Assembly: GCA_902601315.1 (NCBI GenBank)
Contig: CACKMS010000003.1
Location: forward strand, 62,001 to 126,000
Length of the DNA: 64,000 nt
Origin: an uncultured Pelagibacteraceae bacterium
GTDB taxonomy: Bacteria > Pseudomonadota > Alphaproteobacteria > Pelagibacterales > Pelagibacteraceae
Direction of reading: 5' to 3'
This document shows positions 26,967 through 57,734 of the stretch, piece by piece (the stretch's first letter is position 1; the number at the start of each line of letters is the position of its first letter). The notes beneath the pieces were generated by a model. That model was not told the DNA's origin, made no database searches, and saw only the letters and a program-made list of their open reading frames with translations. The position numbers were made by a program, and so were the translations under genes.

Positions 26967-27951
26967 TTTAAAACCAAATATTTCTAATATTATTTCAATT
27001 GAAAGTGTTAATGAGGCTTGTGATAAAAATTATGAGGATATGATGTTAAAATACTATCAATTACAATTTGGTTGGTTTCATAATGCTTACAATGCTTTTA
27101 AGGATATAGATAAATATGTAATCTTAGCACATTTGGTAAATAAAACACTTTCATTTTATAATAAGCATTTTTTTAATATAAGTTTTGATGAATTTTATTC
27201 AAACAAATCCCTTGAGATAGAGAAAATAAGTATAAGTGAAATTGTCAGAGAGCTAAAACTATCAAAAGAAACCGCAAGGAGAAAATTGAATGAACTTACA
27301 AGAGATGGAATTATTGTCAGAGATAAAAAAAAAATTACTATTCAAAGTAATGCTTTTACATATCAAAAGCCAATAGTTAGTATACAAAATTTTTCAAACC
27401 TTTTATCAACTTCATCTAAATATCTTAAAATAAACAGTAATTTTAAATCACAAAATAGTGAATATTTTGAAAAAGAAATTAAAAAAAATTATACACACTA
27501 TTGGAACGATTTCTTAAATTTTCAAATAGAATTAATTCTTAGGTTTAAAGATATATTTTTAAACTATGAAAATGTAATGGTTTTTTGCATATGTTTGCTC
27601 AATCAAGCTTACAACATGAAGAATTCGGATCAAAAAATTGAGGCTGAAAACACAAATCTAATGCATGATATGTATACAAATACTATCACTAGGTATACGC
27701 TTGAAAATTCTAAAGGTTTAAATCCAACAACAATTGCAGAATTAACAGGAATACCAAGAGCAAGTGTGATTAGAAAATTGAATGAATTAATGAAGCTAAA
27801 CTACATTATTTTAAATAGTGATAAATTATATACAACTTGTAGTGCAAAAAAAGGTTCAAATGGATTTAAAAAATTAACCAAGTTTTTTGTAAGCAACCAA
27901 CCTTACATAAGGGGAATAATAAAAGACTTTTTTAATTACACTATTATTTAA
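26959..27951 (+). CDS. Predicted DNA-binding protein with two winged-helix-like HTH segments
   Basis: ISISEIVRELKLSKETARRKLNELTRDGIIVRDKKKITI and LNPTTIAELTGIPRASVIRKLNELMKLNYIIL. Confidence 0.65.
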   Translation: MNNLKPNISNIISIESVNEACDKNYEDMMLKYYQLQFGWFHNAYNAFKDIDKYVILAHLVNKTLSFYNKHFFNISFDEFYSNKSLEIEKISISEIVRELKLSKETARRKLNELTRDGIIVRDKKKITIQSNAFTYQKPIVSIQNFSNLLSTSSKYLKINSNFKSQNSEYFEKEIKKNYTHYWNDFLNFQIELILRFKDIFLNYENVMVFCICLLNQAYNMKNSDQKIEAENTNLMHDMYTNTITRYTLENSKGLNPTTIAELTGIPRASVIRKLNELMKLNYIILNSDKLYTTCSAKKGSNGFKKLTKFFVSNQPYIRGIIKDFFNYTII

Positions 27952-29243
27952 TTTTTACTATCAATAACAACAATTGTTAAATCATCTTTTTGCGTATGCC
28001 CACTGTTTAAAATTTCATCTATAATAACTTCAAGTCTCTCATTATTTGGTTTTTCCTTATATTTTTTTATATAATTTTGAAATCCTTCTGAACCAAGCAT
28101 TTCACCTTTATTGTTTTTTATTTCTGTAATACCATCTGTAAAAATATACATAGAACTTTTTTTAAATGGAATTGAATGTTCGGTGTATTTTGTATTTGGC
28201 ATAATCCCCAATGGAGGACCCGACTCGGTATAATTAGTAAATTTTTCATCTTGATCAAAAATTATTGGAGGTTCGTGCCCAGCACTTGACAAGAGTAATT
28301 CATTTTTATTACTATCATATATACCAATAAGCATAGTCACAAACATACCTCTGGAAATTGTTTCACAGATTTCATTATTTAATTGAGTGAGTAATTCAGC
28401 AGCAGAAAAATTTGTCTTACTTAAACAACTGTATAAACTTGATGCTTTGGACATAAGTAATGATGATTTTATTCCTTTACCTGAAACATCTGCAACCCCA
28501 AAACCATATTTTCCTTCACCTAAATCAGAAAAATTATAGAAATCTCCAGAAACTACTTTTGCTGGTATATTGATACCTGAAATTGGAAATTTGCTATTTT
28601 TATTTTTGGATAAAAGTGATTTTTGAATATCACCAACAATTTCTACTTCTTTTTGAATTTTATTTTTTTCAATCATTTCTTTTGCCATCTTTGCATTTCT
28701 GATTGCAAATGCAGCTGGAGCTGATAATGTTTCTAGTAACTGCCTATCTTCTTCCTGAAAGAGCTTATTAGTAGTTTTTTTATTGAGACAGTGAATTACA
28801 CCAATACAATTATTTGCAGCAATTAAAGGAGAACATAAAACTGAAAAAGTTGTAAAATTTGTTTTATTATCAAGATCGAAATAAAATTCTGCAATTTCCC
28901 TAACATCTTTTCTTACATCTCCAACTCGAATACATTTTTTTTGATTGATAGCTTTACCCATCACACCATCTTTTAAATCCAATTGATATTCATCTAAATA
29001 ATCTTGATTTAAAGAAGCTATGCACTCAAACTTATTTATTTTTTCATTAATCAAGAAAATATTTGCAGCTTGGGCGTTAATTCTCTCAATAATAACTTTT
29101 AAAGCAGTATTCAAAGTGTCATCTAAATCTAATGAAGATGCGAATTCTTGATTCATCTTCGTGATTATCTCAAGATCAATATCTGCCTTAGACTCAACCT
29201 GAGCTTTAGGCTCCATTACTTTTTTTGGTTTAAATAGAAACAT
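27948..29243 (-). CDS. GAF-domain SpoIIE/RsbU-type PP2C phosphatase
   Basis: GAF region (INAQAANIFLINEKINKFECIASLN...) plus KVVSGDFYNFSDLGEGKYGFGVADVSGKGIKSSLLMSKASSLY, FTDGITE, KDDLTIVVI. Confidence 0.92.
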   Translation of the reverse strand: MFLFKPKKVMEPKAQVESKADIDLEIITKMNQEFASSLDLDDTLNTALKVIIERINAQAANIFLINEKINKFECIASLNQDYLDEYQLDLKDGVMGKAINQKKCIRVGDVRKDVREIAEFYFDLDNKTNFTTFSVLCSPLIAANNCIGVIHCLNKKTTNKLFQEEDRQLLETLSAPAAFAIRNAKMAKEMIEKNKIQKEVEIVGDIQKSLLSKNKNSKFPISGINIPAKVVSGDFYNFSDLGEGKYGFGVADVSGKGIKSSLLMSKASSLYSCLSKTNFSAAELLTQLNNEICETISRGMFVTMLIGIYDSNKNELLLSSAGHEPPIIFDQDEKFTNYTESGPPLGIMPNTKYTEHSIPFKKSSMYIFTDGITEIKNNKGEMLGSEGFQNYIKKYKEKPNNERLEVIIDEILNSGHTQKDDLTIVVIDSKN

Positions 29244-41821: not shown

Positions 41822-42476
41822 TTTTTTCGTAAGAATATTTGTATTTATTTATTATACCAAATCTTGAATATTTTACTAAATATACAGGATAGTCTCCATC
41901 CTTACCTTTGATGGCTCTTGGTAAGAATTTTTTCGATACAGGATTACATGTTGTTACTCTTTTATAGCAAATTACAATTAAATTATTTGTTAATGATACT
42001 TTGTCTAAAGTACTATTATATTGACTCTCTGCGCTTCCAAATTGTTTAAAGTACTTACCACCTTTTGAAAAACAAATCGCTGCATTTTTTACTAAATGAT
42101 AGACATACACATCTTCATCCAATGATAATGATGTTATGGTATCAGAGCCATCCATGTCTGTACTGACACAAGTTGGTTTTTTGTTAGCATTGAGTTTATT
42201 AGAAAGAGTAGTAGCGTCGATACCTTTCACGGTGATCAACTTATCTGTTTCAAACTCTACTCTAACATATGGATATGATCCTCTTTCAACTTGAGTACTT
42301 GCTACACTTAAGATTGAGGCAACTTTTTCTGCTTGAGTTCTAACTAGTCTTTCTATACTCCATTTTTCAAATTGTGGTAAACCCATTCCTGCAACTACTC
42401 CTATAATTGCAATTATCACTAATAATTCTAAGAGAGTAAAACCTTTAATGTTCTGCTTTTGCTGCACTAGTGTCAA
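41802..42476 (-). CDS. FimT/GspH-like minor pseudopilin
   Basis: IKGFTLLELLVIIAIIGVVAGMGLPQFEKWSIERLVRTQAEKVASIL. Confidence 0.85.
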   Translation of the reverse strand: MTLVQQKQNIKGFTLLELLVIIAIIGVVAGMGLPQFEKWSIERLVRTQAEKVASILSVASTQVERGSYPYVRVEFETDKLITVKGIDATTLSNKLNANKKPTCVSTDMDGSDTITSLSLDEDVYVYHLVKNAAICFSKGGKYFKQFGSAESQYNSTLDKVSLTNNLIVICYKRVTTCNPVSKKFLPRAIKGKDGDYPVYLVKYSRFGIINKYKYSYEKNDYINQ

Positions 42477-43461
42477 TTTTTCCTGATGTTACAAGATCCT
42501 GAATAGATTTCTCCATGGTAATCATTCCATCTCTAACCGCTGTTTGCATCACACTTGGAATTTGATGTATCTTTGCCTCACGAATTAAATTTTGAACTGG
42601 AGGAGTGCACTTCATAATTTCAAAAGCGCCACATCTACCTTGTCCATCTTTTGTTTTAAATAATCTTTGTGTAACTACCATTTTAAGTGAAGTAGAAATT
42701 TGGGCTCTAATTTGTGCTTGCTGTTCAGGAGGAAATACGTCGATAATTCTATTTATGGTGCTTGGTGCTCCACTTGTATGTAAAGTTCCAAATACTAAGT
42801 GACCCGTTTCAGCTGCGGTTAATGCTAGACTTACAGTCTCGAGATCTCTCATCTCTCCCACTAAAATTACATCAGGGTCTTCTCTAAGAGCTGCTTTTAA
42901 AGCTGCAGCAAACGATTGAGTTTGTTTTCCAACCTCTCTATGTGAAACAATACTTTTTTGGTCTTTATGAATAAATTCAACCGGATCTTCAACTGTAATT
43001 ATATTCGCTGTCCTTTGTTTATTTATCTCATTTACTATAGCAGCTAGAGTTGTTGACTTACCAGATCCAGTCGGGCCAGTTACCAAAACTAATCCTTTGT
43101 GATAGTCAATAACATCATAAAGTGCTGGTGGTAAACTGAATTGATCCATGTCTGGAATTTTACTCTCAACTCTCCTACAAACACATGCAGGACCATTAAT
43201 CGTTTTATAAAAGTTTGCCCTAAACCTTAAACCACCTAATGTGATAGCAGTATCAAGCTCATGCGTTGTTTCAAATTTTTCTAATTCGCCTTCATTACAA
43301 TTCATTGATAATAGATCTTTTAGATCTTGAGGAGTAACTGGCGTTTCTTGCACCATAATAATTTCACCAGTTTGTCTGTAAGCTAAAGGTGATCCTGCTC
43401 TGATATGAAAATCTGATATTTTTTTATTATTTTTGGCAAGGTCTTCTAATTTATCAAACAT
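42445..43461 (-). CDS. pilT: Type IV pilus retraction ATPase PilT/PilU
   Basis: KGLVLVTGPTGSGKSTTLAAIVNEIN, ALREDPDVILVGEMRDLETVSLALTAAETGHLVFGTLHT. Confidence 0.95.
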   Translation of the reverse strand: MFDKLEDLAKNNKKISDFHIRAGSPLAYRQTGEIIMVQETPVTPQDLKDLLSMNCNEGELEKFETTHELDTAITLGGLRFRANFYKTINGPACVCRRVESKIPDMDQFSLPPALYDVIDYHKGLVLVTGPTGSGKSTTLAAIVNEINKQRTANIITVEDPVEFIHKDQKSIVSHREVGKQTQSFAAALKAALREDPDVILVGEMRDLETVSLALTAAETGHLVFGTLHTSGAPSTINRIIDVFPPEQQAQIRAQISTSLKMVVTQRLFKTKDGQGRCGAFEIMKCTPPVQNLIREAKIHQIPSVMQTAVRDGMITMEKSIQDLVTSGKIDTSAAKAEH

Positions 43462-43618
43462 AGATAATTGATACTATAAAATCTATCAATCTTACATAAA
43501 ATTTACAAATTTGACCCAATTTAGTCATTTATTTTTCCTTAAACAGCTCAACTTTTAATTTAATAGTTACTTAAACTGTAGGTTTATATATAAGTAATCT
43601 TATTTGATTTATTAAATA

Positions 43619-45325
43619 ATGAAAAACCCATTTGCAAATTTATTTAAAAAAAAAGATGCAGCTCCCACAGTTAAGCCAGAAGCATCATCTCCAAAAAAAG
43701 AAAATTTTTTTAGTAAATTAATAAAAAATAAAATTGGCAAGAGTTCCGTTAAAGGGGAGGAAATTGTTGGTGTAGATTTATCTACAAATGAAATTAGATT
43801 AGCTCAAATTTCAACTAATAAATCTAATCAGTGGATTTTAGAAAAATTTTACTCACATAAAATTGAAGGTTTGCCAGAAAACTCGTCAGTTTTAGAACAC
43901 CCAGATAAGGTTGCCGAAGAGTTAAAAATTGCAATTCAAAAGTCAAAAATTTCAACATCTAATGCTGCAATAGCGATACCAGTAACCAGTGCAATTATAA
44001 GAGTTGTTACAAGCCCATTGATGACAGATGAAGAGCTTCATAACGCTGTAAAAACAGATTCACTATGGGAGAATTTAGTTCAGCTTACTGATAACCTGGA
44101 TGATTATTCTATTTTTCACCAGGTGATAAATAGAGATCAAACTGGCAATACAATGGATATATTATTTGTTGCATCAAAGTTAGCAGACATAAATAGTTAT
44201 ACTGAAATAATTAAGAAAGGAGGAATGAACGCTGTTATTATTGATGTAAAATGTTTTGCATTAAAATCTGCTGTAGACCAAATAAATCAAATTTCAGGGA
44301 CTATTGAAGATTCCAATTTGACTGCTGTTTTAGAATTTGGATTAGATGAAAATTATGTAATGATTTTATACGAAAACAATCCCATTATTACTGATATATT
44401 TATAAGAGGCCAAGATAGAACCACTCTAATTGAAAGTAACAATCAAGAGGAGATGGAGGCGTTAGTAAGAAGATACATTACTCAAGTAAAACAAGCAGTA
44501 CAGGATTTTGAAACAAAATATGAAAAAAGAATTAGAAATTTAAAAGTTACTTCTAATTTAGCCAATGTTGAAACTTATCTTGCAAGTTTTAGAAAAAATT
44601 TAGTTAATACAGGTTTTAATTTATTTGATCCACTCGATGGAATAAAAATTCCTGCTCAAATTGAAGAAAGTGTTAAATTAGAAAATCGATCTTATCTATC
44701 TACAGTGATGGGTCTTGCATTTAGAAAGCTTGATGTATTTGGATATTTCAAATTTGTAACAGCTGTTAAAAATATAAATCTACTTCCAAACAGAGACGCA
44801 ATGATAAAACAAAAAAAGGCAAAAGCATTTTCAAATTTTGCATTTAAAGGAATATTAGGGACAGTGTCAGTAGTTTATATTATTCTTTTTGCTTTATCAT
44901 TCTGGCAAATAAATTCATTAAATAGTAAAATTACCAATTACTCTCAGATAGTTCAAACTCATCAAGAAAGAAGTGATCAGTTAGCGAAGATAAGTAAAGA
45001 ACTCAGTAAATTAAATAAATCATTGGAGTTAAGTAAATCCATTAAGTCAAACAAAAAAATAAGTTTTAGAGTATTGGCTCAGGTTGCATCAGCAGTTCCA
45101 AAAAGAGTAAGATTTACAAAAATTGATTTTAATGGAACTAACCAAATTCTTATTCAAGGGCTTGCTGCGAGTGACCAGGATATTTTAAAATTAATTAGTA
45201 ATTTAAATAATAAAAAATTAATTTCACAGGCATCTCTTGCAAGCATGGATTTATCAACAGCCTCTGGTAACACAAATAATGCAATGAAAGGCTTTTTAAT
45301 TAATTGTATATTGGAGAAAGTCTAA
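43619..45325 (+). CDS. PilM-PilN fusion (actin-like PilM followed by PilN)
   Basis: N-terminal VGVDLSTNEIRLAQIS (PilM); C-terminal NINLLPNRDAMIKQKK + TM + VPKRVRFTKIDFNGTNQILIQGLAASDQDILKLISNL (PilN). Confidence 0.88.
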   Translation: MKNPFANLFKKKDAAPTVKPEASSPKKENFFSKLIKNKIGKSSVKGEEIVGVDLSTNEIRLAQISTNKSNQWILEKFYSHKIEGLPENSSVLEHPDKVAEELKIAIQKSKISTSNAAIAIPVTSAIIRVVTSPLMTDEELHNAVKTDSLWENLVQLTDNLDDYSIFHQVINRDQTGNTMDILFVASKLADINSYTEIIKKGGMNAVIIDVKCFALKSAVDQINQISGTIEDSNLTAVLEFGLDENYVMILYENNPIITDIFIRGQDRTTLIESNNQEEMEALVRRYITQVKQAVQDFETKYEKRIRNLKVTSNLANVETYLASFRKNLVNTGFNLFDPLDGIKIPAQIEESVKLENRSYLSTVMGLAFRKLDVFGYFKFVTAVKNINLLPNRDAMIKQKKAKAFSNFAFKGILGTVSVVYIILFALSFWQINSLNSKITNYSQIVQTHQERSDQLAKISKELSKLNKSLELSKSIKSNKKISFRVLAQVASAVPKRVRFTKIDFNGTNQILIQGLAASDQDILKLISNLNNKKLISQASLASMDLSTASGNTNNAMKGFLINCILEKV

Positions 45326-45963
45326 TGGATTTGAAAAATATAACTGTTGAAGATTTAAAAGAAAAGTTTGCAGCTTTTGATAAGAAAACTTTAATTAAAT
45401 TTGGAATTGGAATTGGAGCTATCATTCTTTTCCTAATAATTTATTTTGCAATTTTAAGGCCAATGGTAAATGAAAAAAAAGCAACTTTGGATGATCAAAT
45501 AAATAAGCAAATGGAAATTCAGCAATTTGAAAATGACATTATAACAATAAAAAATAGAATAAAAAAAATGGAACCTATTGTTGAAAAAAATTCAACACTA
45601 TTTCACTCTAAAGCTGAAGTGGAGGGTTTATACGACAGTTTAAGTAGGTACGCTGGAGCTTATGGATTAGTAATTTCAAAAATACAAAAGCAAAAACCAC
45701 AACCAGTATTAAAATCAGGGGTAGCTGCCCAGGCTCAGGAACTACTTGATCAAAGCATGGTGTCTTATTACAAAATACCTGTAGATTATGAGATTAAGGG
45801 TAACTTTTTAAACTATATTAAATTTAAAAGAGCAGTATCTAGGTCAAAAAAAATGCTAAACTTTGACAAAGAGCTCATAAATGTTGTACAAAACGATCCT
45901 AACGGAGCAGTCGTTGCAAGTGGAGAACTAACAATTGTAGGTTTGCCAAATGAATTTTTTTAA
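45325..45963 (+). CDS. pilO: PilO
   Basis: Single TM, coiled coil, GLVISKIQKQKPQP...YYKIPVDYEIKGNFLNYIKFKRAVS; order M-N-O-P-Q. Confidence 0.9.
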   Translation: MDLKNITVEDLKEKFAAFDKKTLIKFGIGIGAIILFLIIYFAILRPMVNEKKATLDDQINKQMEIQQFENDIITIKNRIKKMEPIVEKNSTLFHSKAEVEGLYDSLSRYAGAYGLVISKIQKQKPQPVLKSGVAAQAQELLDQSMVSYYKIPVDYEIKGNFLNYIKFKRAVSRSKKMLNFDKELINVVQNDPNGAVVASGELTIVGLPNEFF

Positions 45964-46378
45964 ACTTTTTCTGATTTTATTATTTTTTATTTTTTCATCA
46001 AATAGTTTTGCAGATAACCACGGCCAAAATGAAATTGCGCAAGAAATATCTGAAGATGAGGAAGTTCCTTTGAATGATCCTTTTGCGGGTAACGAAGGTA
46101 CTGGTGGTGCTTTAAATTCTCAAATGCCATCTGAAGAAGAAGAGGACGAAATGAGTTTGTATAATTTTAAACTTGTTGGACTGATATCAGGTAAGGATAA
46201 TAGTTACATTTCATTAGCAAATTCTGGTGGTGAAGTAATGACAATTACCCTTGGACAATTTTTAGGAAAAATAAAACTTATAGATCTTAGATTAAACGAA
46301 GCAATATTTGAAAAAGAAGACAAGAAATTTGTGATCATTGATTTTAACAATGTTATTAGGGAGGCAGATGAATATTAG
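45950..46378 (+). CDS. pilP: PilP-like inner-membrane-associated pilotin/lipoprotein-like protein
   Basis: LYNFKLVGLISGKDNSYISLANSGGEVMTITLGQFLGK; position between pilO and pilQ. Confidence 0.82.
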   Translation: MNFFKLFLILLFFIFSSNSFADNHGQNEIAQEISEDEEVPLNDPFAGNEGTGGALNSQMPSEEEEDEMSLYNFKLVGLISGKDNSYISLANSGGEVMTITLGQFLGKIKLIDLRLNEAIFEKEDKKFVIIDFNNVIREADEY

Positions 46379-47918
46379 GAAATTTAATAGACTAATATTA
46401 TTATTTCTCTTTTCAGTTGTATTAGTAGGCTGTCAACAAATGAAAAGTGCAAATAAGCCCTTCAAACATAACACTCCATTAATTAAAGAGAATATAAAAA
46501 AAGATGGTGCAGCGGAAATACAAAAAACTTTAGAGCTTGGACCAAAACCATCATCAGGAGATAAAGTTTACGGCAAAAGAAAAAAAATTTCATCTGAGGC
46601 TCAAAGAAACTATCTTTTGATACCAGATACATATCCACTTCTTAAACAAAGAATTACTTTTAAATTTAAAAATCTTGATTTTAAAGAAACCATGTATTTG
46701 ATGGGTAAAATTGGAGAAATTAATGTACTAGTTGGAGATGAAGTTGCTGGTGCAATCTCAGCAGAATTAATTGATGTTCCTTGGGACAAAGCTTTTCAAG
46801 CATTATTAGACATGAAAAATTATGCATCAGACATTGATGTAAGTTCAAACTTAATAAGAATTCATTCACCTGAGGTGTTAACATCACAAGAAAATTATAA
46901 ATCTGACAGAGCGTCTGCAGTAAAAAGAAAAGTTGAGTTGGAGGATAGTGTCGAGCCAATTATATCTGAAATATTTAGACTTTATTATATTACACCAGAC
47001 CAAGCTAAAGCTACATTGGAGGAGTTATTTACACAACGTTCAGGAGAGTCTGCATTTGTACCAATTCAAGTTACTGAGGAAGTCACAACAAGATCAATAA
47101 TTGTAAGAGGTAAAGAGAAGGATCTTGATGTGGTGGACAAACTAATTAAAGAAATCGATGTTAGAACTAAACAAGTTTTAATTGAAGCCTTTATTGTTGA
47201 AGCTAACTCAGATTTTGAAAGGGCTTTAGGGACAAGATTAGGTGGTTACTATTTAAGAGGAGGAAAAAATGTTGGAGGTATAGCTGGTCCGAGTTCAGGA
47301 AGTGCTGATGGGACTGATTTAAGTGCAGATGGAGTTGCAGAACTAGGCTCAGCGACAGATAGTATAACAAACTTTGCAGCCACTGGCGCATCAAGCGGTA
47401 TAGGAATTTTAAGAAGAACAGGAACAGGAGTTCTAAAAGCAGAAATAACTGCACTTGAAAGTTTAGGATTAGGAAAGACAATATCAAATCCAAAAGTTTT
47501 CACATTGGATAATCAGTCAGCAACTGTAACTCAAGGTGAAGAAATTCCATACCAGACAACAGCTGATGGCACTACAACTACATCATTTAAAGAAGCAGCA
47601 TTAAAACTTGAGGTTACTCCAAGCATAATTGGAGACGGAAATGTACTACTGAATATAAAAGTCAACAATGATACCCCGAATAGATCTGCAGAGTCTGATG
47701 AACCACCAATCAATAAAATGGAGATAGTAACCAAATTATTAGTCGCAGATGGTGATATAGTAGTTATTGGAGGAATTAAAAAGAACGTAATTGTTAATCA
47801 AAAAAGTCAAACCCCAGGTCTTGGGAATGTTCCTGTGATAGGTAATCTCTTTAAAGGTAAATCAAATTCTGATAACTTAGATGAATTATTAGTGTTTATT
47901 GCACCAAGAGTATTATGA
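46371..47918 (+). CDS. pilQ: Secretin PilQ
   Basis: Lipobox VGCQQ from ATG 46371; FKNLDFKETMYLMGKIGEINVLVGDEV; secretin domain VLIEAFIVEANSDFERALG...KTISNPKVFTLDNQSATVTQGEEIPYQT. Confidence 0.93.
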   Translation, partial: NIRKFNRLILLFLFSVVLVGCQQMKSANKPFKHNTPLIKENIKKDGAAEIQKTLELGPKPSSGDKVYGKRKKISSEAQRNYLLIPDTYPLLKQRITFKFKNLDFKETMYLMGKIGEINVLVGDEVAGAISAELIDVPWDKAFQALLDMKNYASDIDVSSNLIRIHSPEVLTSQENYKSDRASAVKRKVELEDSVEPIISEIFRLYYITPDQAKATLEELFTQRSGESAFVPIQVTEEVTTRSIIVRGKEKDLDVVDKLIKEIDVRTKQVLIEAFIVEANSDFERALGTRLGGYYLRGGKNVGGIAGPSSGSADGTDLSADGVAELGSATDSITNFAATGASSGIGILRRTGTGVLKAEITALESLGLGKTISNPKVFTLDNQSATVTQGEEIPYQTTADGTTTTSFKEAALKLEVTPSIIGDGNVLLNIKVNNDTPNRSAESDEPPINKMEIVTKLLVADGDIVVIGGIKKNVIVNQKSQTPGLGNVPVIGNLFKGKSNSDNLDELLVFIAPRVL

Positions 47919-49663
47919 TTGATATAAGTAGAGAGTCCGAAATTAATTTAATCAATATTTTAATTGATCAAGATATTATTTCCGGCAAAGATTTAATTGA
48001 TATTAAAAAAGCTTCTTCCGAAGGTGAAAAATCTCAACTAGATGCTGTATTTGAGTTGAAATTAACAGATGAAGATAAAATATTAGATTTATTAGTTAAA
48101 GAGCAGTCCCTACAAGTTGTAGATCTAACAACAATGCCTATTGCTGATGATATTAAATCAGTACTACCATCAAATTATGTGAGAATGAATTTTATTGCTC
48201 CTTTTAAAATCGAAGGAAAAACTCTTCATATTGCAATTTCTGATAGTTCAAAATTAAGTTTAATGAGAAATTTAAAAACAATAACAAAAAAAGATATTGA
48301 ACTACATGCAGCTAAAGTAACTCAAATTTCAGATTATATTCAAAAACTTCTTAAAGAGGGAGAGACAACAATTGAGTCTATTCAAAAAGCTAACAAAGAA
48401 AAAATACAAACATTTGACTATGATGTAGATGAAAATGCAGAAGTATTAGACGAAAAACCTGAAGAAGATATTGAGGCTTTAGAAAACGAGTCTGAAGTAA
48501 TAAAATTTTCAACAGCAGTTGTTGCAGAGGCAATTAAATCTGGTGTATCGGATATACACATTGAACCTTATCGTTTCAGTGCAAGAGTAAGATACAGACT
48601 AGATGGTATGCTTCAAGAACAAGAGCATTTTTCAAAATTCTTGCACTCAAATTACGGAGCTGTTGTAACCAGATTTAAGATAATGGGTAAATTAGATATT
48701 GCAGAAAGAAGATTGCCACAAGATGGGGCCATTCCATTTAAGATAGATGGAAAAGTAGTAGACCTTCGTCTATCAATATTGCCGACGGCAACAAATGAGA
48801 GAATTGTAATGAGGATTCTAAACAAAGATGCTGGTGACATAAGTTTAGAACAATTAAATTTTGAAGAAAACGATTTAAAAAATTTAAGAAAAGCAATTCA
48901 TGGTACTCAAGGATTAATTTTAGTTACTGGTCCAACAGGTTCAGGAAAAACTACAACTCTTTATAGTATTTTAAAAGAGGTATCCAAACCTCACTTAAAT
49001 ATTTTAACAGCAGAAGATCCAGTTGAATATGAATTAGATGGTGTGGGACAAGTTCAAATTAAAGATGACATTGGTTATGACTTTAATAGAGCGCTTAGAT
49101 CTTTTTTAAGACAAGACCCAGAGATAATTCTAGTTGGAGAGATGCGGGATAAAGAAACAGTAGATATTGGATTGAAAGCTGCACTAACGGGTCACTTAGT
49201 ATTTAGCACACTGCACACAAATGATGCACCTAGTTCTATTACCAGATTACAAAATATGGGAACGCCTGATTATTTAATTTCAGCTGCTTGTTCATTAGTT
49301 CTTGCACAAAGATTGGCTCGAAAAACTTGTACTGAGTGTAGAGAACCAGATCCAGATGTAACACCGAAAGTTTTAGAGGAAATAGGATTTACAGCAGAGC
49401 AAGCATCGAGAGCAAAAGCATTTAGAGGAAAAGGATGTCCTAAATGTAAAGATACTGGTTACAAAGGTAGAATGGGTATTTACGAAGTATTGAATGTTAC
49501 AAAACCAGTTAAAGAAGCAATATTAAGAAAAGCAACTACTCCAGAGTTAAAAGAAATTGCCAAAAAAGAAGGATTTAGAACCATGTCTGACATGGGTAGA
49601 GAAATGATTATAAGTGGGGACCTAAACTTCAGAGAGTTTGATAGAGTTCTCAGCATGGATTAA
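47915..49663 (+). CDS. pilB: Type IV pilus assembly ATPase PilB
   Basis: GLILVTGPTGSGKTTTLYSILKEV; IILVGEMRDKETVDIGLKAALTGHLVFSTLHTNDAPSSITRL; CTECREP...CPKCKDTGYKGR. Confidence 0.96.
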   Translation: MIDISRESEINLINILIDQDIISGKDLIDIKKASSEGEKSQLDAVFELKLTDEDKILDLLVKEQSLQVVDLTTMPIADDIKSVLPSNYVRMNFIAPFKIEGKTLHIAISDSSKLSLMRNLKTITKKDIELHAAKVTQISDYIQKLLKEGETTIESIQKANKEKIQTFDYDVDENAEVLDEKPEEDIEALENESEVIKFSTAVVAEAIKSGVSDIHIEPYRFSARVRYRLDGMLQEQEHFSKFLHSNYGAVVTRFKIMGKLDIAERRLPQDGAIPFKIDGKVVDLRLSILPTATNERIVMRILNKDAGDISLEQLNFEENDLKNLRKAIHGTQGLILVTGPTGSGKTTTLYSILKEVSKPHLNILTAEDPVEYELDGVGQVQIKDDIGYDFNRALRSFLRQDPEIILVGEMRDKETVDIGLKAALTGHLVFSTLHTNDAPSSITRLQNMGTPDYLISAACSLVLAQRLARKTCTECREPDPDVTPKVLEEIGFTAEQASRAKAFRGKGCPKCKDTGYKGRMGIYEVLNVTKPVKEAILRKATTPELKEIAKKEGFRTMSDMGREMIISGDLNFREFDRVLSMD

Positions 49664-49667
49664 TTAA

Positions 49668-50909
49668 ATGTCAGCTGAAACTTATACTTATAAAGGTATA
49701 TCTGCTGGAAAATATGTCGAAGGTACAGTTGAGGCTTTAAGTCAAGAAGAGGCATCTTTTAAGCTAAAAGAGCAGAAAATAATAATCACAAATTTAGTAA
49801 AAACTAAAAAAAAAGCTGCAGAAAAGAAAAAAAGTAGTGGTGGTGGAATAAGTTTATTTAAAAAGAAGATTAAACCTGAAGATGTTGTAATTTTTTCAAA
49901 ACAGTTTGCCACAATGGTTAAAGCCGGTCTTCCTATTCTGAACGTTTTAACAATGTTAAGGGATCAATTAGAGCACCCCGAATTAAAAATAATTATCGAA
50001 GATATCAGAAAAAATCTTGAAGGAGGTCTTACTCTATCCAAATGTTTTGAAAAATATCCAAAAATTTTCGACAACATTTATATAAACTTAATTAAGGCTG
50101 GCGAAGCTAGTGGTAAACTAGATGTTTTTTTATTAAAGCTTGTCGATAGTTTAGAAAAAAGAGAAAAAGTTAAGAAAAAAATTAAGAGTGCATTAACTTA
50201 CCCTGTTGTTATGTTTGTAGTAGCAATCACAGTAATGGTTTTTATGTTAATAAAAGTTGTTCCAATATTTGCAGAAATGTATGAAGGTATGGGAGTTGCA
50301 TTACCAACCCCAACTGCAGTTATAATGAATGCAAGCAATTTCATGAGGGGATCTGGTGGCTTAACATTAGCAATAGTATTAATTATTGCTTTTATTGCCT
50401 TTAAATATTTAACCACAAAAATTCCTGCAATTAGATACAAGTGGCATCAACGTGTTTTAAAAATGCCAGTATTTGGGGACATGATCTTAAAATCTTTAAT
50501 TGCTAGAATTTCATTAATAATGGGTAATTTAAGTGCTGCAGGAGTTAATTTACTTGAGAGCATAGAAATTGCTAAACAAGTAAGTAACAATGATGTTGTA
50601 ACGTTGGCTCTCGAAAATGTTAAAAAGGGAGTTTTCTCAGGTGATACACTAACTAAATTATTTTTAAAAGAACCAACATTTCCACCAACATTTAGTCAGC
50701 TAATTTCGGTTGGTGAACAAACTGGAAATTTAGATGAAATGTTTACTTCAGTCTCTAATTATTATGAAGAAGAATTTGATACGGCAGTAGATAACATGTC
50801 AAGTTTAATTGAACCAATCATGATCGTTTTTATGGGAACAATGATTGGTGGATTAATGATTGCGATGTACTCACCAATATTTAATGTTGGTTCAATTATC
50901 GGTCAGTAA
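49668..50909 (+). CDS. pilC: Type IV pilus inner-membrane platform protein PilC
   Basis: VVIFSKQFATMVKAGLPILNVLTML; SQLISVGEQTGNLDEMFTSVSNYYEEE. Confidence 0.95.
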   Translation: MSAETYTYKGISAGKYVEGTVEALSQEEASFKLKEQKIIITNLVKTKKKAAEKKKSSGGGISLFKKKIKPEDVVIFSKQFATMVKAGLPILNVLTMLRDQLEHPELKIIIEDIRKNLEGGLTLSKCFEKYPKIFDNIYINLIKAGEASGKLDVFLLKLVDSLEKREKVKKKIKSALTYPVVMFVVAITVMVFMLIKVVPIFAEMYEGMGVALPTPTAVIMNASNFMRGSGGLTLAIVLIIAFIAFKYLTTKIPAIRYKWHQRVLKMPVFGDMILKSLIARISLIMGNLSAAGVNLLESIEIAKQVSNNDVVTLALENVKKGVFSGDTLTKLFLKEPTFPPTFSQLISVGEQTGNLDEMFTSVSNYYEEEFDTAVDNMSSLIEPIMIVFMGTMIGGLMIAMYSPIFNVGSIIGQ

Positions 50910-50913
50910 TAAA

Positions 50914-51324
50914 TTAATAATTTTTTGTTAGAATTAAGTGATTAACCCAATCATTTCTTGACGTTTTAAAAATTACTTCATCCATAATTTGACCAATAAA
51001 AAAAGTTCCAAGTCCACCTGGTTTAATATCGTCTATTTTTCTAGGTTTGATATTTTCAGGTATCACAGGTTTTCCTTTATCATAAATTTCAATTATTAAT
51101 TGGTTATCTTTAAAACTTATTTCTACACGCATAGTATCTCCTGTTGGCTTACCATTATATGCATGCTTAACGACATTTTGTGCAGCCTCTGCTAATGCTA
51201 ATACAACATCGTCTTTTGTTGCATCGAACATATTATCTTTCGCTAAAACTTCTCTTGCAAAATTTCTTATTTGTTTAAGACTGGATGACTCAACTGGAAA
51301 TTCTTTATGTTCTTCAAATGTCAT
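50914..51324 (-). CDS. RsbW-like anti-sigma/switch serine kinase (HATPase_c_2)
   Basis: VVLALAEAAQNVVKHAY N-box and KPGGLGTFFIGQIMDEV G-box; overlaps STAS gene. Confidence 0.92.
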   Translation of the reverse strand: MTFEEHKEFPVESSSLKQIRNFAREVLAKDNMFDATKDDVVLALAEAAQNVVKHAYNGKPTGDTMRVEISFKDNQLIIEIYDKGKPVIPENIKPRKIDDIKPGGLGTFFIGQIMDEVIFKTSRNDWVNHLILTKNY

Positions 51325-51623
51325 TACTCAATAATTAATATTTGCTCTAATTTTGCCATCATGATTACTTTAAGAACTGACTTACTAATTTCTTTAAGTA
51401 TAACCTTATTTCCAAGTTCAGCGGCTTTCTGATGACTTTCAATGAGAACAGATATCCCAGAAGAGTCCATGTATTGAACATCTTTAAGATTTAAGTGAAC
51501 CTCTTTGCCAGCTTCTATTAACGGCATTATTTGCTCTTTGGCTTTTTCGGTTACATCCATGTCAATTTCACCGTCTAGGTGAACTGTAGCTACATTTCCT
51601 TCTTCTGTTATTTTATAAGACAT
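51324..51623 (-). CDS. STAS-domain anti-anti-sigma factor-like protein
   Basis: HLNLKDVQYMDSSGISVLIESHQKA with phosphorylatable serine. Confidence 0.93.
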   Translation of the reverse strand: MSYKITEEGNVATVHLDGEIDMDVTEKAKEQIMPLIEAGKEVHLNLKDVQYMDSSGISVLIESHQKAAELGNKVILKEISKSVLKVIMMAKLEQILIIE

Positions 51624-51776: not shown

Positions 51777-52286
51777 ATGAAGAAAAAACAAAAAGGTTTC
51801 ACACTTATTGAGCTATTAGTCGTTGTAGCTATTATCGGTATTCTTGCCGCTGTAGGTGTAGTTGCTTATTCTGGATATACATCTGGTGCAAAAAAGTCTG
51901 CTGCTAAATCTAATCATGCTGCAGCCTTGAAATTTGCCGCCGCAGAGATGAAAAAGTGTAACATCAATGGTGGTGAAGGAAGTGCAATGAAAAATTCTGC
52001 TGGTTCAGAACAATTAAGTTGCGGTGATGTTGGCACAGCCAATGAAGTTGCTAAGGCTTTAGTTAAGGCGTTAGATGATTTTAAAAATCCGTACGGAAAA
52101 GTTCCAAATACTGACGCGGGAGATACTAAGGCTATTCAAATAGGTGCATCAAAAGCAGCTACAGCATGTAGTAAAGATACAAAAGGCCATACTTATGTTT
52201 TTGACGATGCAACCACTTTGTATGTTCAAACTTGTTTTTCAGACGCTACTGCTGACACCATGAGCAGCCAAACAATGGTTGAGTAA
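51777..52286 (+). CDS. pilA: Type IV major pilin (PilA-like)
   Basis: QKGFTLIELLVVVAIIGILAAVGVVAYSGYTSGAKKSAAKSNH. Confidence 0.94.
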   Translation: MKKKQKGFTLIELLVVVAIIGILAAVGVVAYSGYTSGAKKSAAKSNHAAALKFAAAEMKKCNINGGEGSAMKNSAGSEQLSCGDVGTANEVAKALVKALDDFKNPYGKVPNTDAGDTKAIQIGASKAATACSKDTKGHTYVFDDATTLYVQTCFSDATADTMSSQTMVE

Positions 52287-52296
52287 AAAAAAATTT

Positions 52297-52716
52297 ATGA
52301 CTACTAGGAGTAGAGGATTTTCTCTAATCGAGCTCCTAGTAGTTGTAGCTATACTCGGTATTGTATCAGCCATAGGAATAATTGGATACTCTGGCTACGT
52401 AAGTTCTTCAAAAAAAAAAGCAGTTGAAAATGGACTAATGCAATTATCACTTGGTCAAACGGAATACTATTCAGACAATTCAGCTTATTACGGATCCGCA
52501 GCAGGAACAACTTGCACTCCTTCATCTGCAACAACTACAACTGTGCAAACCAAACTTGTTGGAGGTACAGAACTATTTTCGTCTGATCTTGGATACTCTG
52601 TCTGTGCAGTAACAAATGCTGGAGCATTTTATTTTTTAGTGGCAAAGGAAAATGGCGGAAACTGTGAAATAAAATTAACTGGTAATACTCAAAGTATAAC
52701 AAGAACTAACTGTTAA
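52297..52716 (+). CDS. Second type IV pilin
   Basis: SRGFSLIELLVVVAILGIVSAIGIIGYSGYVSSSKKKAVENGL; ATG 52297 preferred over TTG 52279. Confidence 0.92.
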   Translation: MTTRSRGFSLIELLVVVAILGIVSAIGIIGYSGYVSSSKKKAVENGLMQLSLGQTEYYSDNSAYYGSAAGTTCTPSSATTTTVQTKLVGGTELFSSDLGYSVCAVTNAGAFYFLVAKENGGNCEIKLTGNTQSITRTNC

Positions 52717-52979: not shown

Positions 52980-55088
52980 ATGGAAATAAATGTGGGTGAT
53001 GTAAAATCCTTCGTTGATACTCTTTGGGTAATTAATAGCGCAATTCTCGTTTTCATTATGCAAGCAGGCTTTATGTGTGTTGAAAGCGGTTTATCAAGAC
53101 ACAAGAATAGCATCAACGTTGCCTTAAAAAATGCTGCAGATTTTGGAGTGTCAGTTGTAGTTTTTTGGCTATTTGGCTTTGGTTTAATGTTCGGCAAAAG
53201 CTTTAACGGTTTCTTCGGAACTGATTTATTCTTTTTTGCAACTGACATTGCAGAGTTCCAAACTTATTTTGTATTCCAAGCAATGTTTGTTGCAACAGCT
53301 GCAACTATAATTTCAGGAGCTGTAGCAGAAAGACTTAAATTCGTTGGATATTTGGTAATGACTGTTTTTGCTACAGGAATAATTTATCCAATCGTTGGTC
53401 ATTGGGCCTGGTCTTCAAGTTTTTTAGGAGAGTTAACGAATGAAGGATGGCTTGCAGCATTGGGATTTGTAGATTTTGCGGGTAGCACAATTGTCCATTC
53501 AGTAGGGGGTTGGATTGCTTTATCAGGTATTTTAATTTTAGGGCCAAGAATTGGGAAATATTCTGAAGCAAACAAAGGAAAGTTTACGGGCTCAAGTTTT
53601 CCACTCGCTGTCCTTGGGACATTAATATTATGGTTTGGTTGGTTTGGATTTAATGGAGGAAGCAATGGCGCAATGGATGAGGCGGTTCCACTTATATTGA
53701 TTAATACATTTCTTGCAGCATCATTTGGCTTAATAACAAGTCTGATAGTTTCATTTGCAATTTTTAAAAAGCCAGATCCTTTCTATGTCATACTTGGGCC
53801 TCTAGCAGGATTAGTATCAATCACTGCAGCTTGTAATTCTGTCAATTCACTTGTTGCAATTTTAATAGGTGTAATTGGAACAATAATTGCAATCATTGTT
53901 CATGAATTATTAAATAAAAAAGAAATAGATGATGTTGTTGGAGCTGTACCAGTTCATCTTGCGGCTGGTGTTTGGGGAACATTAGCAGTTGGAATATTTT
54001 CAAACCCTGAAATTTTAGGGACAGGCTTATCAAGAATTGATCAAATTAAAGCGCAGTTAATAGGAATAAGCACAATAGGTTTTTTTTCATTTGTTTCATC
54101 ATTTATATTTTTTAAGATTGTAAATTACTTTTATCCTTTAAGAGTAAGCCCGTTACATGAAGAGTTAGGATTAAATATTGCAGAGCATGGCGCTGTGTCC
54201 GTCGAACATGACTTAATTGCAATTTTAGACAAACAATCAAAATCTGGAGATTTAAAAATAAGAGGTCCTCAAGATCCATTTACTGCAGGCGGTGTGATTG
54301 GATTATATTACAATAAACTTATGAGCAAGTTAGAGTCTAGCGAAACTGAAAAAAATAAATGGCGAGAGAGAATTTCCAAAGAAGTAAATCTAGCAGTCAA
54401 AGTTCAAGAAAACTTTTTACCAAAAAGAAATTTAAGTAACTTTCCTGTGAGTGGAATAAATATTCCTGCGCGAGAAGTTTCAGGAGATTTCTTTAGTTTT
54501 TACCCCCATAACGAAAGTATTTATTTTATTATTGCAGATGTCGCTGGAAAAGGAATACACGCAGGTATGGTAATGGCCAAAGCTTCAACATTATTTGAAA
54601 TAATGTCTAAGGATAAAGTCGATCCAGATGAAATGATGTTTCATATGAATAATGATTTATACCAGACTAAAACGGCTGGAATGTTTGTGACTTGCATTTT
54701 AGGTGAATATGATTTGGTAAGTGAAGAAATAAGATGGGTGAATGCAGGACACCAACCAGCATTAATTAGAACACAAGATGGAAAATATTCTGAGTATATT
54801 TCAAGTTCAACGCCTTTGGGAGTAATAAAACATAAGGATAAAAGTGTTTATAAATTAGAAAAAAATAAATTAAGCTCTTCGAGATTTTATGTATTTACAG
54901 ATGGATTATCAGAAAGTTTGGATAAAAATGGTGATGAAATAGGTGTCGAGGGCTCCATTAAAATTATAGAGAATAATTTTAATACTGATTTAAAAAAACA
55001 ACTCAAGGATGTAACGTCTGAGGTAGTTAAAGTCGCGGGTGACAAAAACCTTAGTGATGACTTAACTTTAGTAGGGTTAGGAAATTAA
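52980..55088 (+). CDS. Ammonium transporter (Amt) domain fused to SpoIIE/PP2C phosphatase domain, copy 1
   Basis: Amt signatures FQAMFVATAATIISGAVAERLKF, VDFAGSTIVHSVGG, GWFGFNGGSNGA, AVPVHLAAGVWGTLAVGIF; PP2C signatures EVSGDFFSFYPHNESIYFIIADVAGKGIHAGMVMAKAS, VNAGHQPALI, FTDGLSES, SDDLTLVGL. Confidence 0.95.
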   Translation: MEINVGDVKSFVDTLWVINSAILVFIMQAGFMCVESGLSRHKNSINVALKNAADFGVSVVVFWLFGFGLMFGKSFNGFFGTDLFFFATDIAEFQTYFVFQAMFVATAATIISGAVAERLKFVGYLVMTVFATGIIYPIVGHWAWSSSFLGELTNEGWLAALGFVDFAGSTIVHSVGGWIALSGILILGPRIGKYSEANKGKFTGSSFPLAVLGTLILWFGWFGFNGGSNGAMDEAVPLILINTFLAASFGLITSLIVSFAIFKKPDPFYVILGPLAGLVSITAACNSVNSLVAILIGVIGTIIAIIVHELLNKKEIDDVVGAVPVHLAAGVWGTLAVGIFSNPEILGTGLSRIDQIKAQLIGISTIGFFSFVSSFIFFKIVNYFYPLRVSPLHEELGLNIAEHGAVSVEHDLIAILDKQSKSGDLKIRGPQDPFTAGGVIGLYYNKLMSKLESSETEKNKWRERISKEVNLAVKVQENFLPKRNLSNFPVSGINIPAREVSGDFFSFYPHNESIYFIIADVAGKGIHAGMVMAKASTLFEIMSKDKVDPDEMMFHMNNDLYQTKTAGMFVTCILGEYDLVSEEIRWVNAGHQPALIRTQDGKYSEYISSSTPLGVIKHKDKSVYKLEKNKLSSSRFYVFTDGLSESLDKNGDEIGVEGSIKIIENNFNTDLKKQLKDVTSEVVKVAGDKNLSDDLTLVGLGN

Positions 55089-55169
55089 AAAATTAATCAA
55101 GATATATAAATTTATTTTGATTTAAAATTTAATAAATATAGATTTCAGCAGTTTTAAAATAAGGAGAAT

Positions 55170-55496
55170 ATGAAAAAAATAATCTTAAGCCTATTTTTAA
55201 CATTAATAAGCACAAATTTATTTGCAGCACAAACTCAAATTGCCCAAGTAAATGGTATGATCTGTATTAAATGTCAAAAAATGGTAACCGAAGCATTACA
55301 AAAAGCAAGTCCAGATGCAGATATTAAAGTATCTTGGCCTGAAGGTGTTGCTGTATCTGCTTTTCAGGATAAATCAAACTTATCTGATGAGCAATACAAA
55401 GAAGCAATAGCAGGAACTGGTTTTGAAGTAATTAAAGTTGTCAGCGTTGACAAAATAGTTACTGATGCAAGTGAAGCTGTTAAAATATTAGACTAA
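55170..55496 (+). CDS. Secreted heavy-metal-associated (HMA)-like domain protein
   Basis: Signal peptide MKKIILSLFLTLISTNLFAA; CIKC metal-binding-like motif in NGMICIKCQKMVTEALQKASPDADIKVSW. Confidence 0.75.
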   Translation: MKKIILSLFLTLISTNLFAAQTQIAQVNGMICIKCQKMVTEALQKASPDADIKVSWPEGVAVSAFQDKSNLSDEQYKEAIAGTGFEVIKVVSVDKIVTDASEAVKILD

Positions 55497-55505
55497 TAAA
55501 TTTTT

Positions 55506-57734
55506 ATGACTGTAGCTGAATTACAGGCCCTGGTCTTTAAGTTACAGTCTCAATTAAATCAATTAGAATTAACTAACAAAGGTGCAAACAAAGCGCTAGA
55601 GTTCAGACTTGAGGCAGTTCTTCAAGCTAACCTAGATACATTTTGGCTTCTCATTTGTGCTATTTTAGTTTTTTTGATGCAGGCTGGCTTTATGTGTTTA
55701 GAGTCAGGTTTATCAAGGGCTAAAAGCAGTATTAACGTTGCGCTTAAAAATGTTACAGATTTTGGAATATCAGTAGCAACTTTTTGGGCATTTGGTTTTG
55801 CTTTGATGTATGGAACTAGTGTGTCGGGTTTATTTGGCTCAAAGTTTTTCTTCTTTACTACAAAAGTTGCAGGATATCAGTCATTCTTTGTATTTCAGGC
55901 TATGTTTGTTGCAACTGCTGCAACAATCGTTTCTGGTGCAGTCGCTGAAAGATTAAAATTTTTTTCATACGTAATTATTACATTTGTCACCTCAGGTATT
56001 ATTTACCCAATTGTTGGGCACTGGGTTTGGTCATTAAACTTTTCAAATCCAGACGTTAAAACAGGTTGGTTAGGAAAATTAGGTTTTATTGATTTTGCAG
56101 GGTCGAGTGTAGTGCATTCTGTTGGAGGATGGGTTGCACTTGCGGTGCTATTGATTATCGGTAATAGAACTGGAAGATTTCAAGACGGTAGGAAAAGAAC
56201 ATTTCAAGGAAGTAACACACCTCTAGCTGCACTTGGAGCTTTAATTTTATGGTTTGGTTGGTTTGGATTTAATGGCGGAGCCAATGGTGCAATGGATCTT
56301 AGAATTCCACTTATATTAATTAATACATTTCTTGCTGCCTCTGCAGGTTTAATTTTGTCTAGTGTTATGGGTATTTATGTAATGAAAAAACCTGAGCCGA
56401 TGTTCATGATTACAGGCCCAATTGCTGGTTTAGTTTCAATCACAGCATCTTGTGCTTATGTTGATCCAACTGAAGCAATTATAATTGGCGCAATAGGTGG
56501 AATAGTATCTGGATCTGGAATTTTATTGTTAGAAAAAATAAAAGTTGATGATGTAGTTAGCGCTGTTCCCGTTCATTTATTTGCAGGAACTTGGGCAACA
56601 ATAGCTGTTGCACTATTTGGTGATTTTGAGGCAATGGGAATAGAAAGATCTGTGATCGATCAATTGTATATTCAGCTTATTGGTATTGTAAGCGTTGGGG
56701 GTTTTTGTTTTATCTCAGCATTTACAATTTTTTTTATGATCAATTTATTGTTTAGGTTAAGAGTAAATAAAATTGAGGAAGATATGGGACTTAATATCTC
56801 TGAACACAACGCATCCACTGCTACTCATGACTTATTAAAAGTGTTAAACAAACAACAAGAAACTGATGATTTTAGCTTAAGAGCACCGCAAGATCCTTTT
56901 ACGGAGGCAGGGGTAGTTGCAAGTCAATACAATAATATAATGGACAAACTTGAGCAATCTGAAAGACAAAAAAATATTTGGAAAAGCAGAGTTTCTAAAG
57001 AAATTAAATTAGCAATTGACGTTCAAAAAAGATTAATGCCAAGAAGAACTATAAATCATTTTCCAATTGAGGGAATTAATATCCCAGCAAGAGAAATATC
57101 AGGTGATTTTTATGATTTTTATCCACATAATGATTTAATTTATTTCACGTTGTGTGATGTTTCTGGAAAAGGTGTAAATGCTGGAATGGTGATGGCAAGA
57201 GCTATAACTTTATTTAAAATTTATTCTAAAAATAAGTTTAAACCCAATGAAATACTTTATGAAATGAATAATGATCTTCAACAAACCAATCCAAAAGGTG
57301 TTTATGTTACAAGTATTGTAGGATCTTATAATTCCAAAACAGATATTATTGAATTATCAAACGCAGGACACCTACCAGCATTATTTAAAAAAGGCAGAGA
57401 ATTTATAGAGTACGATTCCTCATCGATGCCTCTAGGTGTAAAAAAAGCAGATAACAATAAAGAGTATAAACTTGAAACTATCAAACTAGAAGATGGAAGG
57501 TTGTATTGTTTTACAGACGGTTTTTCAGAGTGTAGAAATAAAAATGGAGATGAGATTGGAATTGATGGAGTTAAAAACCTAATTATTAATTATCAAAACA
57601 CTTCTTTAAAAAAAGAACTTTCAAAAATAATTAAAGATGTAGAATCTAAAAGCACTAAAGATAAAAATTTTGATAATGTTAATACTGATAATATTTTAGA
57701 GGACGATCTAACTATTATTGGTCTTGGCAAATAG
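55506..57734 (+). CDS. Amt ammonium transporter domain fused to SpoIIE/PP2C phosphatase domain, copy 2
   Basis: FQAMFVATAATIVSGAVAERLKF, IDFAGSSVVHSVGGW, GWFGFNGGANGAMD, AVPVHLFAGTWATIAVALF; EISGDFYDFYPHNDLIYFTLCDVSGKGVNAGMVMARA, SNAGHLPALF, FTDGFSEC, EDDLTIIGL; extra N-terminal amphipathic/coiled segment. Confidence 0.95.
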   Translation: MTVAELQALVFKLQSQLNQLELTNKGANKALEFRLEAVLQANLDTFWLLICAILVFLMQAGFMCLESGLSRAKSSINVALKNVTDFGISVATFWAFGFALMYGTSVSGLFGSKFFFFTTKVAGYQSFFVFQAMFVATAATIVSGAVAERLKFFSYVIITFVTSGIIYPIVGHWVWSLNFSNPDVKTGWLGKLGFIDFAGSSVVHSVGGWVALAVLLIIGNRTGRFQDGRKRTFQGSNTPLAALGALILWFGWFGFNGGANGAMDLRIPLILINTFLAASAGLILSSVMGIYVMKKPEPMFMITGPIAGLVSITASCAYVDPTEAIIIGAIGGIVSGSGILLLEKIKVDDVVSAVPVHLFAGTWATIAVALFGDFEAMGIERSVIDQLYIQLIGIVSVGGFCFISAFTIFFMINLLFRLRVNKIEEDMGLNISEHNASTATHDLLKVLNKQQETDDFSLRAPQDPFTEAGVVASQYNNIMDKLEQSERQKNIWKSRVSKEIKLAIDVQKRLMPRRTINHFPIEGINIPAREISGDFYDFYPHNDLIYFTLCDVSGKGVNAGMVMARAITLFKIYSKNKFKPNEILYEMNNDLQQTNPKGVYVTSIVGSYNSKTDIIELSNAGHLPALFKKGREFIEYDSSSMPLGVKKADNNKEYKLETIKLEDGRLYCFTDGFSECRNKNGDEIGIDGVKNLIINYQNTSLKKELSKIIKDVESKSTKDKNFDNVNTDNILEDDLTIIGLGK

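Follow-up and report, generated by a model that had tools for sequence, protein, structure and literature searches.

Tandem Amt-SpoIIE fusion proteins of SAR11 bacteria are candidate ammonium-receptor phosphatases linked to an RsbW/STAS pair in a type IV pilus locus

Amt proteins that act as receptors are already known: Sd-Amt1 of Shewanella denitrificans (PDB 8qj3, 8qj4 and 8qpf) reportedly has a diguanylate cyclase as its output, unlike the proteins described here. Ks-Amt5 of Kuenenia stuttgartiensis (PDB 6eu6) carries a histidine kinase whose activity depends on ammonium, low ammonium raising kinase phosphorylation, and binds its ligand at a two-ammonium site formed by Q24, E31, N47, D50, T51, T109 and T112 (PMC5764959). 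On the phosphatase side, switching of RsbU-type enzymes works through paired coiled-coil linkers (PMC12143880). We analysed a 64,000-nucleotide stretch (the window) of contig CACKMS010000003.1, positions 62,001 to 126,000, from an uncultured Pelagibacteraceae bacterium (genome 1.2 megabases, 86% complete), in which two tandem genes each fuse an Amt domain to a SpoIIE-type PP2C phosphatase domain. The best explanation, to which we give a probability of roughly 0.7, is that the products are ammonium-receptor phosphatases acting on an RsbW/STAS partner switch that is connected to the neighbouring pilus locus.

Paralogue 1 (52980..55088, + strand; 702 amino acids) comprises a receptor-type Amt domain (53025..54197, +; residues 16-406, supported by Pfam match, residue mapping and Foldseek), a HAMP-like relay with a coiled-coil helix (54201..54416, +; residues 408-479, from AlphaFold helices and a family profile) and a PP2C/SpoIIE domain (54447..55085, +), and is the orthologue of SAR11_0049 of strain HTCC1062. 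Paralogue 2 (55506..57734, +; 742 amino acids), the orthologue of SAR11_0050, has its PP2C/SpoIIE domain at 57096..57731 (+). That both open reading frames hold a full Amt and a full SpoIIE/PP2C domain had been predicted from the sequence, and the open reading frame list and Pfam bear this out, with matches far over the curated cut-offs to PF00909 (E=6.9e-113 and 7.2e-110 for paralogues 1 and 2) and to PF07228 (E=3.6e-37 and 2.5e-31). The NCBI models name both fusions plain 'ammonium transporter' (TIGR00836 over its cut-off), and the phosphatase half may have been overlooked for this reason. Measured against the closest relative (G015), the ratio of nonsynonymous to synonymous substitution rates (dN/dS) of paralogue 1 is ~0.03-0.04 in both domains and ~0.01 in the linker; that of paralogue 2 is 0.03 in the Amt and 0.07 in the phosphatase domain. 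By these ratios both fusions are working genes under purifying selection, and together with the conservation of key residues they rule out a degenerate fusion or pseudogene.

The original prediction also held that the pore-lining regions, including the twin-His positions, are conserved, and residue mapping agrees: the twin His (H173/H326 in paralogue 1, H204/H357 in paralogue 2), the Phe gate and the Trp are present in both proteins. Paralogue 1 keeps every pore residue, including the selectivity-filter Ser (S228), which in paralogue 2 is Ala (A259; Ala in 11/11 sequences); the two paralogues therefore probably differ in affinity or selectivity. At the positions of the Ks-Amt5 ammonium site, paralogue 1 has Q28, E35, N51, D54, F55, T109 and S112, a set identical to that of Sd-Amt1 and invariant in 50/50 distinct homologues. 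Relative to Ks-Amt5, the Q, E, N and D residues and T109 are thus kept, T51 is replaced by Phe and T112 by Ser (as in Sd-Amt1), and the pore-blocking Y30 and F34 are replaced by Val/Met/Leu and Leu. Escherichia coli AmtB and Af-Amt1 are without most of these residues, and the ordinary Amt of the same genome has A/E/N/L at the first four positions. We considered the Q/E/N/D set as a diagnostic of receptors and rejected it, as it also occurs in more than half of the standalone Amts sampled, which had been chosen in part through an MQAGF pattern.

Better evidence of a receptor type than the ammonium-site residues comes from the clade and from the relay. In a quick tree the Amt-SpoIIE proteins form a single lineage (support 100), nested in a clade (Shimodaira-Hasegawa-like approximate likelihood ratio test support 95) that also takes in Ks-Amt5, Sd-Amt1 and almost every Amt joined to a kinase, cyclase or chemoreceptor domain; the ordinary SAR11 Amt falls outside it. 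Foldseek ranks the ON and OFF structures of Sd-Amt1 (8qj4/8qj3) and Ks-Amt5 (6eu6) at the top for paralogue 1, and Sd-Amt1 is the closest solved relative (48% identity and a template modelling score of 0.95 over the Amt part), with the same HAMP-like relay region. Separately, in several loci (L038 921-3171, L052, L023 and L166) an Amt domain is joined to a chemoreceptor signalling domain, and these proteins are candidate ammonium chemoreceptors; two such fusions group with standalone Amts in the tree, and fusions of this kind therefore arose more than once (at least two origins).

A helical linker shared by the two proteins had been pointed out beforehand; it is real, and better described as HAMP-like. 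The AlphaFold model of paralogue 1 (mean predicted local distance difference test score, pLDDT, 87.5) places helices at residues 408-422 and 436-479, the latter running into the PP2C fold. A profile built from 21 Amt-fusion linkers matches, in the PDB, Sd-Amt1 and 9trk (a construct of a histidine kinase containing HAMP-like repeats). Taken singly, 13 of these linkers match PF00672 (best 2.2e-5); the window's two linkers alone give no Pfam HAMP match, and the HAMP reading is based on the family profile and relatives. On that basis the linker is a divergent HAMP-like unit common to Amt-kinases and Amt-cyclases.

The phosphatase half is intact by sequence. An alignment checking for loss of the catalytic Asp residues found all four metal-binding positions of paralogue 1 (D503, D520, D641 and D694), with their Gly neighbours, invariant in 50/50 homologues (reference residues of SpoIIE: D628/D746/D795 and G629; PMC8080068), and paralogue 2 retains the Asp of the motifs ISGD, CDVSGKG, FTDG and DDLT. 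The best Foldseek matches of the phosphatase part are the PP2C domains of RssB, a response-regulator phosphatase, and SiaA, a biofilm phosphatase, both of Pseudomonas aeruginosa; weak NCBIfam matches point to the same two proteins, whose sensor domains differ from Amt. RsbU, SpoIIE and RsbP of Bacillus likewise combine a SpoIIE-type PP2C domain bearing all metal-binding Asp residues with a helical linker from an N-terminal sensor and a nearby STAS/RsbW pair; here, however, the sensor is a predicted membrane ammonium receptor, and no matching alternative sigma factor is known.

The single RsbW and the single STAS gene of the genome lie 1.4-2 kilobases upstream of the fusions. The STAS protein (51324..51623, - strand), an RsbV/SpoIIAA-like anti-sigma antagonist, is the genome's only PF01740 match and has a candidate phosphorylated serine, Ser55, in an MDSSG motif; the RsbW-like serine kinase/anti-sigma-type protein (50914..51324, -), orthologue of SAR11_0057, is the only PF13581 match and has the N-box EAAQN. 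MDSSG was present in 27/27 STAS and EAAQN in 20/20 RsbW sequences, which were themselves picked up by these motifs. SpoIIE proteins number four in this genome. Besides the two Amt fusions there are a CHASE2-SpoIIE, encoded elsewhere, and a GAF-SpoIIE phosphatase (27948..29243, -), presumably a second input to this STAS/RsbW pair. Across 297 genomes of the order, counted irrespective of relatedness, RsbW was found in 88, SpoIIE in 97 and both in 88, with RsbW never occurring without SpoIIE (0/88); RsbW was present in 56 of the 59 Amt-SpoIIE genomes, and the RsbW/STAS pair shared a stretch with the fusion in 21/31 Amt-SpoIIE loci.

The pair also adjoins type IV pilus genes (PilT on the - strand, then PilMN, PilO, PilP, PilQ, PilB and PilC; 42445..50909; PilM and PilN by Pfam, the rest by sequence), and two type IV pilins (51777..52716, +) stand between the STAS gene and paralogue 1. 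Pilus gene order is conserved among the loci compared, and RsbW adjoined type IV pilus genes in 20/20 further chosen loci, including lineages that lack Amt-SpoIIE, with CHASE2-SpoIIE often downstream of the pilins. We conclude from the linkage in those lineages that the switch is part of the pilus locus, with the sensor phosphatases seemingly interchangeable as inputs to it.

In the mechanism that we propose, ammonium reaching the Amt domain would bind within the membrane at a site resembling the one in Ks-Amt5, and the resulting change would pass via the HAMP-like relay and coiled coil so that the PP2C domains pair and switch, by analogy with RsbU. The active phosphatase would then take the phosphate off Ser55 of the single STAS protein, phosphorylated STAS being the expected substrate by analogy with other SpoIIE enzymes (PMC8080068); the dephosphorylated STAS would bind the single RsbW kinase, and RsbW's other partner would be freed. 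Other signals presumably reach this pair through GAF-SpoIIE and CHASE2-SpoIIE, and the output is most likely the type IV pilus, because the RsbW/STAS pair lies inside that locus. Control by ammonium and its direction, the role of STAS as substrate and that of the pilus as output are what we infer here from homology and gene context. The original prediction called the proteins transceptors that turn external ammonium into STAS dephosphorylation; the receptor-type Amt, the intact PP2C domain and the linked, co-occurring STAS/RsbW pair agree with its signalling part, but 'transceptor' implies transport, and 'receptor' is safer because Ks-Amt5, the closest characterised relative, binds ammonium and barely transports it (PMC5764959).

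Full-length Amt-SpoIIE proteins were found in 59/297 sampled genomes of the order, all of them Pelagibacteraceae (SAR11), the closest named relatives with the fusion being Pelagibacteraceae single-cell genomes. Apart from this genome, none was found in the 385 genomes of the class and 399 of the phylum that were sampled, where fused Amts are common, their additional domains being kinases, GGDEF/EAL or chemoreceptor modules. Among the best 80 loci of the genome collection no full-length Amt-SpoIIE lay outside Pelagibacteraceae, and absence outside Pseudomonadota rests on these best 80 loci of a genome-contig scan. No description of an Amt-SpoIIE protein was found in the literature, as far as our searches reach.

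Judging by gene order, 'Candidatus Pelagibacter ubique' HTCC1062 carries both fusions, as SAR11_0049 and SAR11_0050, which have been tabulated as 'ammonium transporter' (PMC2217521). We take genome G011 to be this strain because it reproduces the hupA-amtB interval 791867-792012 to the base (PMC2704228) and because its RsbW position agrees with SAR11_0057 in a published table (PMC13198564). A 2025 phosphoproteome of HTCC1062 described wide Ser/Thr/Tyr phosphorylation with RsbW as the only known Ser/Thr kinase, and concluded that none of the annotated phosphatases has proteins as substrates and that there must be an undescribed enzyme that does (PMC13198564). The HTCC1062 genome has four SpoIIE-like matches, which by sequence are direct candidates for this missing enzyme; in an older table SAR11_1218 was called 'phosphatase, sigB regulator' (PMC2217521).

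In AmtB-GlnK an Amt domain is likewise linked to nitrogen signalling; here there is no PII, and the signalling domain is in the same chain. PII/GlnK (PF00543) was absent from the window's genome and from 45/45 Amt-SpoIIE genomes, and was found in 0/25 same-genus genomes sampled vs. 15/16 in a second family of the order. As PII is also absent from same-genus genomes that lack the fusion, we rejected Amt-SpoIIE as a one-to-one replacement for it. The fuller proposal, that SAR11 receptor phosphatases read outside ammonium independently of PII, set an RsbW/STAS switch controlling type IV pili, and constitute the unrecognised Ser/Thr phosphatase of HTCC1062, is one we advance tentatively, at somewhat short of even odds.

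Several points weigh against reading the fusions as ammonium-receptor phosphatases of the RsbW/STAS switch. Amt proteins are trimers and PP2C activation needs a dimer, a mismatch of stoichiometry shared with Ks-Amt5; confidence in the modelled relay helix is low (pLDDT 56-76 around residues 450-490); and the Q/E/N/D set is, across the sequences compared, necessary and neither sufficient nor diagnostic for receptors. Paralogue 1 is distant from RsbW in some genomes, and the co-occurrence counts, as noted, ignore relatedness. The only sigma factors known in HTCC1062 are sigma-70 and sigma-32 (PMC13198564), and RsbW is therefore left with no obvious sigma partner. The argument as a whole is built from sequence, a structural model and gene context.

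The alternative that survives best accepts the receptor and disputes the output: what RsbW frees would be a sigma factor or some other regulator, and the linkage to the pilus would reflect a shared genomic island. Sigma factors are the targets of classical RsbW proteins, and the HTCC1062 region falls in a hypervariable region (PMC2217521); yet RsbW keeps its place beside pilus genes in all of the chosen loci, even where a lineage orders its pilus genes differently, and no sigma factor besides sigma-70 and sigma-32 is known in HTCC1062, so that we lean against this alternative while regarding it as a serious one. It is unlikely that the fusions are instead general Ser/Thr phosphatases working on many cytoplasmic phosphoproteins (e.g. 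RNA polymerase subunits or NtrX) with STAS as a minor substrate: the wide phosphorylation of HTCC1062, where RsbW is the sole Ser/Thr kinase known and a protein phosphatase has yet to be recognised, would suit such an enzyme (PMC13198564), but PPM enzymes of the SpoIIE type show high specificity for the STAS protein that partners them (PMC8080068), and STAS/RsbW is what the neighbouring genes point to. Improbable, too, is that the fusions are ammonium importers gated by phosphorylation, with PP2C and RsbW replacing GlnK in a PII-less cell, since the complete pore of paralogue 1 and the lack of GlnK/PII in every Amt-SpoIIE genome checked are outweighed by the two ordinary Amts that the genome already has, the clustering of the Amt domain with receptors and not importers, the loss of the selectivity-filter Ser in paralogue 2, the lack of PII in relatives without the fusion, and a PP2C domain that points to the linked and co-inherited STAS/RsbW.

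Other features of the region are recorded here as separate observations. A secreted MerP/CopZ-like metal-binding protein with a GM-x-C-x-x-C motif (55170..55496, +) is encoded between the two fusions, and its gene stands beside paralogue 2 in nearly all paralogue-2 loci, including one of another genus (L115). PilM and PilN are fused in a single open reading frame (43619-45325, +). Beside the GAF-SpoIIE gene, window positions 26097-27951 (+) encode a transporter of the bile-acid-symporter family together with a regulator containing two winged-helix regions; in HTCC1062 a 34% identical regulator and such a transporter (L110 6001-7846; SAR11_0047/0048) adjoin Amt-SpoIIE. Several Pelagibacter genomes, HTCC1062 included, have a tandem duplication of STAS (L010, L013, L014, L110, L128, L196 and L201), the copies sharing ~60% and ~80% identity with the STAS protein of the window; in HTCC1062 they correspond, by gene order, to SAR11_0055/0056. 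In two genomes (G013 and G017; loci L111 and L112) paralogue 1 stands alone among unrelated genes and RsbW/STAS stay in the pilus locus. In Pelagibacter genomes that lack Amt-SpoIIE, a divergent RsbW occurs beside PilT and an ABC transporter (L191 7588-9613, G026), a neighbourhood in which similarity revealed no STAS. A promoter scan returned 24 matches vs. 30.8 expected, within chance.

SAR11 are among the most abundant cells of the ocean and are often nitrogen-limited, and Pelagibacter is without PII. If our reading is true, the fusions would provide a route from outside ammonium to a protein-phosphorylation signal in PII-less SAR11, and control of the pilus would perhaps affect surface contact or DNA uptake. 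Receptor Amts being already known, it is the phosphatase output that is new: it would be the fourth kind of receptor-Amt output, after histidine kinase, diguanylate cyclase and chemoreceptor, and could answer two open questions in SAR11. Studies of transporter counts or of transcripts in which SAR11_0049/0050 figure as genes for ammonium uptake would have to be read anew. HTCC1062 is a cultured strain carrying the fusions, and it has four SpoIIE-type candidates, two of which are joined to a predicted ammonium receptor and have long been listed as transporters.

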